Assembly (NCBI RefSeq): GCF_027023985.1
Contig: NZ_JALVTW010000012.1
Location: 1 to 40,622, forward strand
DNA: 40,622 nt
Reading direction: 5' to 3'
Origin: Persephonella sp.
GTDB lineage: Bacteria > Aquificota > Aquificia > Aquificales > Hydrogenothermaceae
The position numbers and the translations under genes were made by a program. Each line of letters begins with the position of its first letter. The stretch's first letter is position 1. The notes under the pieces are model-generated. The model saw only the letters and a program-made list of their open reading frames with translations. It was not told the origin of the DNA and searched no databases. Positions 7,701-20,742 of the stretch are shown piece by piece.

Positions 7701-9671
7701 TTGAGATTAAAATTTAAGGATAAAACAGAATATAGACATTACTGGGAAAATCTTGTTGAGCTTGAAAGGGATGCAGAAAAAGAATTTCATCTTAATGAAA
7801 TAATTTCCCTATCTGGAAAAGAAAGAGAGAAAAAAGGTAGAGCAATATTAGGGCTTAAAGCATCCTTTTTAGGAACAATAATCGGGGATTTTTTGGTTTA
7901 TAGATTTTACAGAGATGATATGCCTGACCATCAGATTAATGTCGGTGATGTTGTTCTGGTTAGCAGAAAACATCCACTAAAGGATGGAGTAGAAGGCACC
8001 GTTTTTGAAAAAGGAAAATATTTTCTGACTGTTGTTTTTTCCCAAAAATTACCTCCTGCTAAAAAATGGCGTATAGACTTGTTTGTAAATGATATAACCT
8101 TTAAAAGAATGCTTGGGAGTCTGGAATTTTTTGAAAAGGGATATTCTCTTTATGATGAAAAAATTATTCTGGGACATAAAAAGCCTGAAGTTTGCGAGGA
8201 GAATTTAGAGTTTGTAAACCAAAATCTGAACCAGTTTCAAAAGGAAGCAGTAAAAAGAGCAGTCTGTTCTCCGCAGTTATTCCTTATACACGGTCCGCCG
8301 GGAACAGGTAAAACTACAACACTAATAGAAGCAATTATTCAACATATTAAAAAAGGTCAAAAAATCCTTGCTACAGCAGACAGTAATACTGCAGTTGATA
8401 ATATAGTTGAAGGACTGTTGAAATATGATGTAAATGTTGTCAGGATTGGACATCCTGCAAGGCTAAAAAAAGAACTGCTTTCTGTTTCTTTAGATGCCAA
8501 AGTAGAAACACACCCTAAATATACAGAAATCAAAAATATAGAAAAAAAGATAAACAAATTAAAATCCCTGCAAGAAAATTATCTAAAACCTATTCCCCAA
8601 AGAAGAAGAGGCCTTTCCTATGATGAAATCCTAAAATATGCAAAAGCCGGTAAAAAGGTTAGAGGACACAAATTAGAAACCCTAAAAAAAATGGCAGAAT
8701 GGATAAGACTTCAAAAGGATATCCAAAAACTTGTAAACCAAAAGAAAAATCTGGAAGAACAGATTATTGAGGATATACTTGAGAAAGCAGATGTGGTTTG
8801 TGCTACAAACTCAGGGGCAGGTTCAGATTTTCTGTTTGAGGATATATTTGATGTTATTTTTATTGATGAGGCTTCCCAGGCTACAGAACCCTCCTGTTTA
8901 ATACCACTTATAAAGGGCAAAAAAGCAATCCTCGCCGGAGACCATAAACAACTTCCCCCTACAGTTTTACACCCTGAAGCCAAAGGCTTATCTTTCACAA
9001 TGTTTGAGAGATTTATAAAAATCTATCCTGATTCTGCTTACATGCTGAAAATTCAATACAGGATGAATGACCTTATAAAAGAGTTTCCTTCAGAAGAATT
9101 TTATAATGGTGAGTTAGTATCTGCAGAAGAAGTAAAAAACAGAAAACTATCAGATATTACAGGAAAAACAGGGAAAGACCCTATAACAGATGATACACCG
9201 ATTGTTTTCATCGATACCCATGGCAGATTTCTGGAAAAACAGAAAAAAGGTAGTCGTTCAAAATATAATCCGGAAGAGGCAAAAATCGTTCAACTTATCA
9301 TAAACAAACTAAAGGAATTAGGAGTTCCACCGGAAGATATTGGAGTTATAACACCATACAAAGACCATGAGGAGTATCTGAAAAAACTTGTGCCAGATGT
9401 TGAGGTGAAAACCGTTGATGGATTTCAGGGCAGAGAAAAAGAGGTAATCATAATATCGCTGGTTCGTTCTAATCCAGACGAGGAAATAGGATTTTTAGAT
9501 GACCTGAGAAGGTTAAATGTCGCATTAACCCGTGCCAAAAGAAAACTGATTGTGATAGGGGATGCAAACACCCTTTCCTCAAATGAAACATACAGAAAGT
9601 TCCTTCAATTTGTTAGAGAAAAAAATGGATTTTTTCCTGTAGAAGAGATTTTAGAAGATGAGAGCATTTAG
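7701..9671 (+). CDS. Superfamily 1 helicase, UPF1/IGHMBP2-like
   Basis: 656 residues from a TTG start preceded by AAGGAG. An N-terminal OB/1B-like region (about 1-170) precedes the helicase motifs: Q-like N-Q-F-Q-K-E-A, motif I G-P-P-G-T-G-K-T-T (198-206), Ia T-A-D-S-N-T-A-V-D, motif II F-I-D-E-A-S-Q-A, III L-A-G-D-H-K-Q-L-P-P-T, IV L-K-I-Q-Y-R-M, V V-D-G-F-Q-G-R-E-K-E and VI N-V-A-L-T-R-A-K-R. This is the SF1B UPF1-like pattern; relatives unwind RNA and DNA 5' to 3'. Bacterial and archaeal members are poorly characterised. The last 14 bases overlap the next gene. The helicase call is firm, the substrate unknown. Confidence 0.92.
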   Translation: MRLKFKDKTEYRHYWENLVELERDAEKEFHLNEIISLSGKEREKKGRAILGLKASFLGTIIGDFLVYRFYRDDMPDHQINVGDVVLVSRKHPLKDGVEGTVFEKGKYFLTVVFSQKLPPAKKWRIDLFVNDITFKRMLGSLEFFEKGYSLYDEKIILGHKKPEVCEENLEFVNQNLNQFQKEAVKRAVCSPQLFLIHGPPGTGKTTTLIEAIIQHIKKGQKILATADSNTAVDNIVEGLLKYDVNVVRIGHPARLKKELLSVSLDAKVETHPKYTEIKNIEKKINKLKSLQENYLKPIPQRRRGLSYDEILKYAKAGKKVRGHKLETLKKMAEWIRLQKDIQKLVNQKKNLEEQIIEDILEKADVVCATNSGAGSDFLFEDIFDVIFIDEASQATEPSCLIPLIKGKKAILAGDHKQLPPTVLHPEAKGLSFTMFERFIKIYPDSAYMLKIQYRMNDLIKEFPSEEFYNGELVSAEEVKNRKLSDITGKTGKDPITDDTPIVFIDTHGRFLEKQKKGSRSKYNPEEAKIVQLIINKLKELGVPPEDIGVITPYKDHEEYLKKLVPDVEVKTVDGFQGREKEVIIISLVRSNPDEEIGFLDDLRRLNVALTRAKRKLIVIGDANTLSSNETYRKFLQFVREKNGFFPVEEILEDESI

Positions 9672-10182
9672 ATTTATTTTTCAACCTTCAAAATACTGGC
9701 CAGAGTTTGAAAAGGATAGAAGCAGCTGGCAGGGGTATTTTTTAAAATATGCCTTAACTTTCGGCCTAATTGGGCCTGTTCTGTCTTTTATTAGCCTGAA
9801 AGATATTTCTTTTCAAAAAGCTATTATTTATGCACCTGCAACTTATATAGCAGATTTGACTGTTTTATTTGTTTTTTCTTTTTTAGTTGCAAAATTGCTC
9901 AGGATAGATTTCTCAACCATTATGAAATTTTACATTCTGGTAAATGTTCCAATATGGCTATCTGATATTTTTGATATATACCAGCCTCTTAGAATTTTGA
10001 GCAATCTGGGGTTTTTATATAGCTTTTATCTGCTGTATATAGGACTAAAATTTTTTAAAAAAGAAAAGTATATCTTACCTGTCTTTATTATCCATTTCGT
10101 TTTATATGTATTAGACGCAGTTTTGTCTGAAATGATAGCAACAAACCCAATTTTGAAAAAAATGTTAGGAGCTTTAGTATGA
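9658..10182 (+). CDS. Yip1-domain-like polytopic membrane protein
   Basis: 174 residues: F-Q-P-S-K-Y-W-P-E-F at the N-terminus, typical of bacterial Yip1-domain proteins (short soluble start then five hydrophobic segments), then segments near 28-47, 58-80, 88-105, 118-135 and 140-158. The biochemical role of bacterial Yip1 proteins is not established. Its start overlaps the helicase end by 14 bases and its stop overlaps the next start in ATGA, so it is coupled on both sides. It could be named only as an integral membrane protein if the domain match fails. Confidence 0.65.
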   Translation: MRAFRFIFQPSKYWPEFEKDRSSWQGYFLKYALTFGLIGPVLSFISLKDISFQKAIIYAPATYIADLTVLFVFSFLVAKLLRIDFSTIMKFYILVNVPIWLSDIFDIYQPLRILSNLGFLYSFYLLYIGLKFFKKEKYILPVFIIHFVLYVLDAVLSEMIATNPILKKMLGALV

Positions 10183-10613
10183 GGAAATTAGCTATATTTT
10201 TATTGCTACTGACTTTTTCCTGTATTGCACAGGATAAGCTTTTAGATTCTCAATTTTTTGACAAAATTTTTTCCCAGAATATTTCTCAAATAAAAGCTTT
10301 CCTTGAAGAAAAAGGTTGCAAAGATTTTTCAGAAAGACAATACGGAAACACTTACGAACACTATCTTGAATGTAGATTAAACAATATTAATCTTATGCTT
10401 ACATATAACGCTAAAAAATCACAGGTTGTTGAACTTGCTATAATTCCTGATAAACCTGTAAAAAATATCTCGGATTTATTAAATTTAAACGGAGTAAAGG
10501 AATACACCATAAAAACTGTAAAAAGTAAAGATAATCCTGATTTAATCTCAAGAATAAATATTCTTCCTCCAGATTACGATAATAGATATACAGATATGAT
10601 AGAAGGCAATTAA
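10179..10613 (+). CDS. Exported small protein, unknown function
   Basis: 144 residues with a clear signal peptide, [18 protein letters not shown]. The S-C at 14-15 could be a lipobox (T-F-S-C, a weak one with Thr at -3), or a standard signal peptidase could cut after I-A. The mature part is mixed alpha/beta with two more cysteines (K-G-C-K-D and Y-L-E-C-R) that could form a disulfide. No family is recognised. It is coupled by ATGA to the Yip1-like gene and followed one base later by the TagB/F-like gene. Confidence 0.65.
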
Positions 10614-14526: not shown

Positions 14527-17298
14527 ATGAAGTTAAAACAAGCATTATTTACAGGAAAATTCCTTGCCTTAACAATGGCAGGGGCTGTAATGTTCAGTTG
14601 TAGCGATGGTGGCGGGGGTGGAGGCTCTACCAAAGGTGGTAACAACACCGGTGGAGGAAGCACTACTGCTCAGTATCAGGGAAGTGTAAGATTAGGTGCT
14701 GTTGAAGGAGCTACTGTTGAAATTTATGAAATAGGCGATGATGGTAAACCGGTTTTAAAATGGACAGAAAAATCTTCAGGTGGTAATTCTCTTGATGAAA
14801 TAGGTAAATTCAATACCCATGCAGATGAGTTAGACCCAAATAAACTTTATCTCTATAAAGCCACAGGTGGTCAGGATTGGGATGCTGATAATGATGGTAA
14901 AAAAGATAGTTCTCCAACTCCTAATAAATGAAAACTTAGAGCACTTGCCACAGGTGAAGATGTTAAAGTTGCCGGTAATGATTTTAAACTTTCTCCTGTA
15001 AGTGAATTAGTAGCTGAAAAGGTATTACCTGATTTAACAGACAGTGCTGCGAAGGGAACTTATAAGCCTTCTGATTTTGCAAAAAAATTAGACGATACTG
15101 CAAAAAGTTTAGTTGATGATGTTAACAATGATGGGGCAACAGATGATGTTGATGCACTTGTTTTTGACCCTGCAAATAATGATGCTAAAAATAAAGTAAA
15201 AGCACCTTTTAAGGGACATGTTGATGATATTGCAAATGATATAAGAGATGGTAAAATACCTCTCCTTGCAGCAGACCCAATTCTTGATAACAAAGATACA
15301 GGCGGAAATGCAAAGAATGCTGCAACATCTCCAGATGGAAAATATGCTTATGTGATTAACGACGATGGAAAAATGAATGTATTTGATGTTTCTGACCCTG
15401 AAAATATGGAACAGAAAAATTCATCTCCTATAGATACTGGGATTACTACACCTGAAGATTTAAAACCTTCAAAAGATGGTGAATATGCATACGTTGCAGG
15501 TGGTAATGATGGTGTAGCGATGCTTGACCTTGATAAAAATAATGATGGGGATAAAGTTGATCCTGAAAATTTAACAACTGTTGACCCAGATGGAGATAAT
15601 ACAAAAGGCTCAGCTAATGCTCTTGATGTTGTTAATGATGGAACAAATGATTATGTTGTTGTAGCTGATGGAGATGAAGGTGTAGCACTTCTTAAAGCTG
15701 ACCCAACAAATGCAGGAAATGAGTTGACAAATGTTGATACTAAACCAACAGGTGATACATCTTCTAATGCAAAAGATGTTGCTGCTTCACAAGATGGTCA
15801 ATATGCTTATGTTGCAGATGAAGACAACGGGCTTGTTACATTTAAAGTAGACCCTAATGATGAAAATGGAGACGGAAATAAACTTGAAAAACTTAATACA
15901 GATGATACATCAAAATACGGCAAAGCACAGGCTGTAGCTGTTTCTCCAGATGGGAAATATGCTTATGTAACGGTTCAGGAAGACAGCCCTGACCCAGCTC
16001 AAGCAAAAGCTTATCTTTTAACCTACGCATTATGTAACCCTGAAGACCCTGTTCTGTTAAATGTTGAAGACCTTCCAAAAGGAAATATTCCGTCTGACAT
16101 TGTAGTTTCTCCTGAAAAGAAAAAATTATTTATACCTGACGGAGAGAATGGCTTAATTGAGGCTGATATTTCAGACCAATCTAAGCCGGAAGTTGATGGT
16201 TTTGTAAATACAGATGGTTCCGTAAATGGAGTTGCACTGAAAGATGATGGCACTTATGCGATAGTTACTGATAATGATAAAGGGGTTAAATCTATTGCAA
16301 CAGACCTTATTCCACCTATTGTTCTTGGATATGCAAGCACTTATGCAGCTATTGACCTTACAGAAACAAAAGATAAGCTTTATTCATTAATTGCTGATGC
16401 TTATTGTGGTCTTAGAGTTGCAGATGTAAGCGACCCAGCAAATCCAAAAATTCTTAATGACTGTGTATGGGATACAACCAGATATGCTAATAGTGTTGCT
16501 GTGAGTAATGATGGAAATACAGCTTATGTGGCAACTTCGGCAGGTGGTGTAAAAGTTTATGATGTATCTGACAAAAAAGCTCCTAATAATGTGGCCGATA
16601 TTCCTGTTAAAAGTTCCGGGGATTCATGTAATAATGAAGCTATAAACTGCGATGCTGCCCATGATGTTTATTTAGATGAAAGTAGAGGACTTCTATTTGT
16701 TGCAGAAGGAACAGCAGGATTAAGAATATTTAATATCTCAGACAACACTGAAAAAGGAAGTCTTGATGATGGAGATACTTCTTCTGCAAGCAATAATGAC
16801 ATAAGAACTGTTGAACTTACACCTGACGGTCAAAAAGCTATCCTTGGTGATATTAAGAGAGGGGTTGTTATAGTTGATGTTTCTAACCCTGCTAATCCAA
16901 CCGAGGAGCAGGTGATTTCTACAGGAATAGGTCTTCAAGATAGTGTTGCAATAAATGGAAATTATATCTATGTTGCTGCAGGACAGAACGGAGTTAAGGT
17001 GTTTGATGCAACGTCTTATAATGAAGTTGCCAGCTTATCTTATAAAGAAGACTCTACAGATACTATCTTTGCAAATGCCATCAAAATTTCAACAGACGGA
17101 AAACTGGCATTCGTATCTGATGTTGATAAAGGTCTTGTAATCTTAGATATATCAAATCCGGCAAATCCTGTAGTTCTTGGAATGCTTGATACTCCAGGTG
17201 AATCTTATTCATCTGTGATTGATGGTGATAAATCTATAGGATTTGTGGCTGACGGTTCAAAAGGCCTACTTCTTCTTGATGTATCATCATTCAAATAA
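14527..17298 (+). CDS. Large lipoprotein with two propeller-like repeat sets, interrupted by an in-frame TGA
   Basis: The frame runs 923 residues from ATG 14527 to TAA 17298 with a single internal stop, TGA at 14929-14931 (codon 135). The lipobox is M-F-S-C with C25, followed by a Gly/Ser linker. An N-terminal domain of about 100 residues ends in a calcium-loop-like D-A-D-N-D-G-K-K-D. After the TGA comes a helical region, a second N-N-D-G loop, then 14 repeats of about 40 residues of the form S-P-D-G-K-Y-A-Y-V followed by G-L-x-x-x-D-V-S-x-P-x-N-P, as in LVIVD/YVTN-type beta-propellers; 14 would make two seven-bladed propellers. It is Asp-rich and probably surface exposed and adhesive. No Shine-Dalgarno or good start precedes the downstream part (first GTG 15352, first ATG 15373), so that part is not an independent gene. 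Nonsense mutation, readthrough, selenocysteine or a base error are all possible. Confidence 0.75.
14929..14931 (+). other. In-frame TGA inside the lipoprotein gene
   Basis: The codons around it are AAT AAA TGA AAA CTT AGA, and both sides stay open in the same frame for long distances. One G-to-T change from GGA (Gly) would produce it. A weak hairpin CACTTG-CCA-CAGGTG (14942-14956) follows, but its three-base loop lacks the G expected in a bacterial SECIS. Confidence 0.85.
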
Positions 17299-17303
17299 TA
17301 TCC

Positions 17304-17329
17304 AAAGGGGGCTTAAGCCCCCTTTTTTC
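17304..17329 (+). terminator. Intrinsic terminator after the lipoprotein gene
   Basis: GGGGGCTTAAGCCCCC (17307-17322), a fully self-complementary stem, followed by six T and CTTTT. It is a textbook Rho-independent terminator. Confidence 0.9.
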
Positions 17330-17398
17330 TTTTCATAAAGTTTAAATTTTCGTGGAATTTCAAATTTTTAATCTGTAGACAAACCTAAAATATAAAAA

Positions 17399-19563: not shown

Positions 19564-19629
19564 TTTCTCTCCCTGAATATTATTTTTAGATAAAATTAAA
19601 ATAGTTCTGAATTTATACCGGTGCAAATG

Positions 19630-20742
19630 ATGAAAAATATAGATGAAAAATTTATGAAAATGGCCCTGCAGGAAGCCAGAAAAGCAAAAGGATATACACA
19701 CCCAAATCCTGCAGTGGGAGCAGTTATAGTTAAAGATGGAAAAATAATAGGCAAAGGCTATCATAAAAAAGCCGGAATGCCCCATGCAGAAAAGGAAGCT
19801 ATAAAGGATGCCTTTTCAAAAGGCTTTGATATAGCCGGCTCTACAATGTATGTAACACTTGAGCCATGCTGTCATTATGGAAGAACTCCACCTTGCACAG
19901 AGGCTATAATTGATAACCGTATAAAAAGAGTCGTAGTTGCCACTTTAGACCCTAATCCTCAGGTGGCAGGTAAAGGGGTAGAGATTTTAAGAAAGCAAGG
20001 TATTCAGGTTGAAACAGGTATTTTGGAAAAAGAAGCTAGAAAATTAAATGAAGATTTTTTTATTTATATAAGAAAAAAAAGGCCTTTTGTTCATCTGAAA
20101 ATAGCCCAGACCCTTGATGGAAAAATAGCAACAAAAACCGGCTCTTCTAAATGGATTACAGGGGAAAAGGCAAGAAGGTTTGCCCATAAATTAAGGAAAG
20201 AAGCGACAGCAGTCTTGGTTGGAGTCGGAACGGCTCTGGCAGATAATCCTCAATTAACTGTGCGAAACTATCCATCCAAAAAACAGCCTTTAAGGGTGCT
20301 TATTGATAAGTATCTGCAAACCCCTCTTGATTATAAAATCTTTGATAGCACTGCAAAAACTATTGTTTTTGTGGCTGAAGATATTCCTGAGGGACAATTA
20401 AAACCTTTTAAAAATAAAGAAAATATTCAGATAATAAAACTCCCTTTAAAAGAAGGTAGATTTGATATAAATGATATTTTGAAAAAGCTTTATGAACTTG
20501 AGGTTATGCATTTACTTGTTGAAGGAGGAAATTCAATAATCACAGAGTTTATAACTTCAGGAATTTATGACAAAATTTCTTTATTTGTTGCTCCTAAACT
20601 TATAGGTGAAGATGGTATATCAGCTATTGGAAAACTGGGAGTAGAAGATATAAATGAGGCATCAAAATTAAGGGTGGAAGGAATAAAAAGGCTTCCACCG
20701 GATATTTATTTTGAGCTATATCCTCTTAAAATGGAGGATTAG
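19630..20742 (+). CDS. ribD: Bifunctional riboflavin biosynthesis deaminase/reductase RibD
   Basis: 370 residues from the ATG at 19630; GTG 19621 and ATG 19627 are in frame and none has a strong Shine-Dalgarno (only GGTG at 19619-19622). The N-terminal cytidine-deaminase-like domain has H52-A-E54 and P-C-C-H-Y-G-R-T-P-P-C (C80 and C89), the zinc site and catalytic Glu. The C-terminal reductase domain begins near L-K-I-A-Q-T-L-D-G-K-I-A and has G-V-G-T-A-L-A-D-N-P-Q-L-T and L-V-E-G-G. RibD performs the second and third steps after GTP cyclohydrolase II in flavin synthesis. It is divergent from polX, with 66 bases between. No FMN riboswitch is seen in the short leader. Confidence 0.95.
   Translation: MKNIDEKFMKMALQEARKAKGYTHPNPAVGAVIVKDGKIIGKGYHKKAGMPHAEKEAIKDAFSKGFDIAGSTMYVTLEPCCHYGRTPPCTEAIIDNRIKRVVVATLDPNPQVAGKGVEILRKQGIQVETGILEKEARKLNEDFFIYIRKKRPFVHLKIAQTLDGKIATKTGSSKWITGEKARRFAHKLRKEATAVLVGVGTALADNPQLTVRNYPSKKQPLRVLIDKYLQTPLDYKIFDSTAKTIVFVAEDIPEGQLKPFKNKENIQIIKLPLKEGRFDINDILKKLYELEVMHLLVEGGNSIITEFITSGIYDKISLFVAPKLIGEDGISAIGKLGVEDINEASKLRVEGIKRLPPDIYFELYPLKMED

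Follow-up and report, generated by a model that had tools for sequence, protein, structure and literature searches.

The described proteins that come closest to the product of the gene reported here are surface proteins with LVIVD repeats (PF08309; PMC2447325) and seven-bladed propellers of the lactonase type (PF10282). For a stop codon inside such a gene, one described system to compare is UGA readthrough by a tRNA-Trp(CCA) whose anticodon stem is shortened to 4 bp: when this tRNA is overexpressed in E. coli, readthrough of UGA increases about 2.5-fold, and of 42,109 genomes only 62 carry the 4-bp variant alongside a 5-bp tRNA-Trp(CCA) (PMC13092985).

The analysed stretch of DNA (hereafter the window; 40,622 nt, to which position numbers refer) belongs to the genome, designated G000, of a heat-loving Persephonella from vent habitats, with G003 to G032 denoting the genomes of its relatives. 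Translation of positions 14527-17298 on the plus strand revealed exactly one internal stop, a TGA at 14929-14931 (codon 135), which divides a frame of 923 codons into 134 and 788 codons. This bears out the preliminary description, which had reported a single in-frame TGA in a lipoprotein/β-propeller gene. The 134 codons before the stop (14527-14928, +) encode a signal peptide with lipobox, a Gly-rich linker and the start of an N-terminal domain; they are preceded by a Shine-Dalgarno-like sequence, as judged by direct reading, and 98 to 134 residues align with the orthologues. The part past the stop (14932-17298, +) comprises the remainder of the N-terminal domain, followed by a lactonase-like region and LVIVD repeats, shows no decay and closes with the terminal TAA at 17296-17298. 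A hairpin resembling an intrinsic terminator follows at 17304-17330 (+), as judged by a consensus match of a kind that shuffled sequences yield 1.6 times on average. The earliest in-frame ATG, GTG or TTG past the TGA is the GTG at 15352 (codon 276). As the 140 codons before it hold no start codon, a downstream restart is implausible, in line with what had been noted before.

Profile searches identified LVIVD repeats (PF08309; E = 2e-34, 117.1 bits at a Pfam cut-off of 20.2) and a seven-bladed lactonase propeller (PF10282; 8.7e-14, above the Pfam cut-off) in the downstream part, confirming the propeller content proposed for it. AlphaFold models, built from two-row alignments, were poor, with mean pLDDT values of 46.5 and 42.8, which leaves the 14 propeller repeats of the preliminary description a tentative count. 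For the N-terminal domain with its calcium-loop-like motifs, scans of Pfam and NCBIfam returned no named family.

Orthologues of the gene reside at the same locus in G005, G006 and G013 (the latter on the MAG contig JALWLQ010000024.1 of Persephonella sp.), flanked by gltX on one side and by a small ORF and polX on the other. They are colinear with both parts of the interrupted frame at 72-89% identity by segment and are uninterrupted at codon 135; thus, the two ORFs constitute one gene, as had been proposed, and should be treated as such in annotation. An apparent frameshift that suggested a second broken copy in G013 was rejected, as it proved to be a run of N in the scaffold. The three orthologues all carry GGT (Gly) at codon 135, and four homologues at a greater distance, those of G003, G016 and G032 and a second gene of G006, likewise have Gly. 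The alignment called for by the preliminary description hence returned Gly, and neither Cys nor Sec nor any other residue, in 7/7 relatives covering the position, and the TGA is specific to the G000 lineage. The GGA-to-TGA change envisaged earlier does not agree with the orthologous GGT, which lies two base changes away from TGA. At the other Gly positions of the interrupted gene, GGA is nevertheless frequent (34 of 88 codons).

An orthologue was found in only 4 of 14 genomes of the genus, and searches of G004, G009 and G011, with completeness of 95-99%, yielded nothing similar to it; the gene is therefore accessory. With regard to the neighbouring polX, residues 1-67 of its ORF as listed, encoded by 19585-19785 on the minus strand, overlap a gene on the opposite strand (19621-20742), and in G005 and G006 they fall into a different frame, so that the real start of polX probably lies further downstream than listed.

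The interrupted frame is best explained by a nonsense mutation that is probably real and very recent, in an accessory gene for a surface lipoprotein. This is favoured by the intact syntenic orthologues with GGT, the Gly of the distant homologues, the lack of a restart and the accessory nature of the gene. The ancestral gene would have been intact and non-essential, encoding a surface lipoprotein with lactonase/LVIVD-type propellers. This strain or species would have gained the TGA only very recently, at the codon for a Gly conserved throughout the family. Translation would then end at codon 135 and yield only a lipoprotein stub of 134 residues that breaks off inside the N-terminal domain; no propeller would reach the surface, and the gene would represent a young pseudogene. 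What speaks against a recent nonsense mutation is that a change from GGT to TGA would require two substitutions, unless the lineage passed through GGA.

Substitution patterns were examined on both sides of the stop. For the window compared with G005, pairwise dN/dS (Nei-Gojobori) amounts to 0.12 ahead of the stop and 0.13 past it; G005 versus G006 gives 0.19 past the stop position. Lineage-unique replacement and silent changes past the stop number 39/100 in the window and 27/73 in G005 (Fisher p = 0.88). Under neutrality, the replacement/silent ratio should be near 2.5-3.2, and 8-16 additional stops would be expected if the entire branch had been neutral; none is present. Together, with baselines of 0.30 and 0.37, constraint on the downstream part can have been absent, if at all, for no more than about 5-10% of the branch. 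Away from the TGA, the sole indel past it is a codon gap common to G005 and G006. Relaxed constraint past the TGA was thus tested and not seen; it is a hallmark of old pseudogenes and no defining feature of recent ones. The visible lack of decay fits a very young nonsense mutation, but fits a sequence error or effective readthrough equally well and to this extent counts against the mutation; such substitution data date a loss of constraint and do not, on their own, choose among mutation, error and readthrough.

We also considered that the stop might have arisen as a sequencing, assembly or culture artefact, with a sense codon in reality and an intact gene. The downstream part is indeed indistinguishable from that of an intact gene, and the TGA is the only clean internal stop of G000 among about 650 gene pairs (see below). 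Against this stand the good quality of the genome (1.90 Mb in 38 contigs, reported as 99.97% complete) and the two bases that would have to be miscalled if the real codon were GGT as in the three relatives, so that we regard an artefact as unlikely. The preliminary description had named a fresh nonsense mutation or an assembly error at the Gly codon of a K-G-K context as the simplest view, which agrees with the Gly of the relatives and the undecayed downstream part.

The frequency of such stops was assessed by setting about 650 G005 genes, drawn from 0.8 Mb of its sequence, against G000 after filtering by coding score; this version replaced an unfiltered comparison that was dominated by antisense ORFs. 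The TGA at 14929-14931 was the sole clean internal stop in G000, the remaining listed stops being located in N-terminal extensions, frameshifted ends or antisense ORFs upon manual reading. In the reverse direction, G005 likewise proved to hold a single clean internal stop, the TAG at L202:12404 within a Uma2 (PF05685) gene whose G000 counterpart (L054:19332-19865) is intact, a parallel case of background nonsense mutation. A coding-potential scan of the whole of G000 found no second TGA of this kind. TGA terminates 22% of ORFs in both G000 and G005 and is not avoided as terminator; followed by A, as here, it forms the commonest natural TGA stop context in G000 (115 of 279), so that the TGA-A context is not special, and a search of papers on UGA context rules returned nothing directly applicable to it. 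With one clean stop per genome in either direction, an equal TGA share and no second TGA, the pattern is that of a background rate of gene loss and not of a recoding system.

Some further observations were made on G000 in the course of this survey. A TAG-split pair of ORFs at G000:C11:77360 was rejected as a second interrupted gene, as it reads more readily as two genes, the second of which would start from a conserved ATT. In seven Persephonella genomes, this second gene (FliMN_C, PF01052) lacks an ATG, GTG or TTG around its start; each of the seven loci shows TAGGAGG, with TAG as the stop of the preceding gene, and 6-7 nt further on a conserved ATT AA(A/G), suggesting that a non-canonical AUU start codon is conserved here. 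Moreover, RNase P RNA, which nearly all members of the genus and family possess, was not found in G000 (Rfam model, blastn; L085 near 9500-10400), nor was HARP (TIGR03875). An assembly gap or rearrangement is the most likely reason for the missing RNase P RNA.

ARAGORN detected no tRNA with a UCA anticodon in G000 and two genes for tRNA-Trp(CCA). The first has a normal 5-bp anticodon stem and lies between a ribosomal-protein gene (read as rpmG) and a secE-like gene. In the second (G000:C33:36208-36283, +), a G.A mismatch between positions 27 and 43 at the top of the anticodon stem reduces the stem to 4 bp, while the 7-nt loop, A at position 9 and G at position 24 are kept. It begins two bases past the stop codon of a tape-measure-like gene in a prophage-like region, the tape-measure relation being supported by matches in a phage collection, and is probably transcribed with the late phage genes. 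G015, from another genus, carries a homologue of 86% identity directly after a tape-measure gene, with five pairs in the stem; no close copy was found in the other genus mates.

By analogy with the E. coli variant, the second tRNA-Trp is possibly a weak UGA suppressor and could read the UGA of the interrupted gene, a point against a simple nonsense mutation. UGA would then be partly read as Trp, either by this prophage-linked tRNA or by a near-cognate tRNA-Trp, to give some full-length lipoprotein. The type of tRNA, with its readthrough in E. coli (PMC13092985), and the constraint that continues past the stop are in favour of such readthrough. However, Trp would take the place of an invariant Gly, no other gene has an in-frame TGA among the about 650 pairs and in the scan of G000, TGA serves as terminator without sign of avoidance (22% in G000 and G005), the RNA past the TGA lacks structure (z = 0.01), and the position directly behind a late phage gene makes expression in a lysogen doubtful. 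We thus consider Trp readthrough improbable. The more specific notion that the prophage tRNA-Trp buffers the host nonsense allele, sustaining low-level full-length lipoprotein that is perhaps tied to prophage activity, is very improbable. Given the exchange of an invariant Gly for Trp, the probable late-phage transcription and the absence of a similar UGA from any other gene, nothing here shows a causal link behind the coincidence of the 4-bp tRNA-Trp with the in-frame UGA.

The preliminary description had also raised phase-variable readthrough and selenocysteine. Phase variation through slippage in repeats does not account for a base substitution. Insertion of selenocysteine at the TGA (14929-14931) has nothing in its favour except the codon itself and is refuted by several observations. 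A search of G000 and 24 relatives within its family gave no tRNA-Sec above the cut-off, whereas another family gave clear matches; ARAGORN found none in G000 either, and selB exceeded its cut-off in that other family only, among the genomes searched. Furthermore, the relatives carry Gly, and neither Cys nor Sec, at codon 135, and RNA past the TGA was no more structured than shuffles (z = 0.01) in a test of general structure that is not a SECIS-specific model. We thus regard the chance of selenocysteine as negligible.

Taken together, a nonsense mutation ranks first, a sequence error second and weak Trp readthrough third. Beyond the evidence from the locus, the mutation is favoured since internal stops occur at the background rate, the TGA share is 22% in both genomes and tRNAs with UCA anticodon or for Sec are lacking. 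As it stands, the locus illustrates in a routine way how a gene is inactivated very recently, and its value lies mainly in annotation. The tRNA-Trp is the part that could change this ordinary verdict: if it were to suppress the UGA, nature would here provide an instance in which a tRNA from a prophage keeps a nonsense allele of its host alive.

In comparison with known systems, the protein resembles LVIVD-repeat surface proteins and lactonase-type propellers through the above-cut-off matches of its downstream part, and differs from both in its N-terminal calcium-loop-like domain without a named family. With the readthrough system of PMC13092985, G000 shares a tRNA of the described type alongside an in-frame UGA; in contrast, only one gene is concerned here, the relatives have Gly and not Trp, and TGA is not depleted. 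The locus also resembles young bacterial pseudogenes with a single nonsense mutation, in having just one stop, orthologues that are intact in the same position, no further decay and a gene of accessory nature. The finding is an ordinary one.
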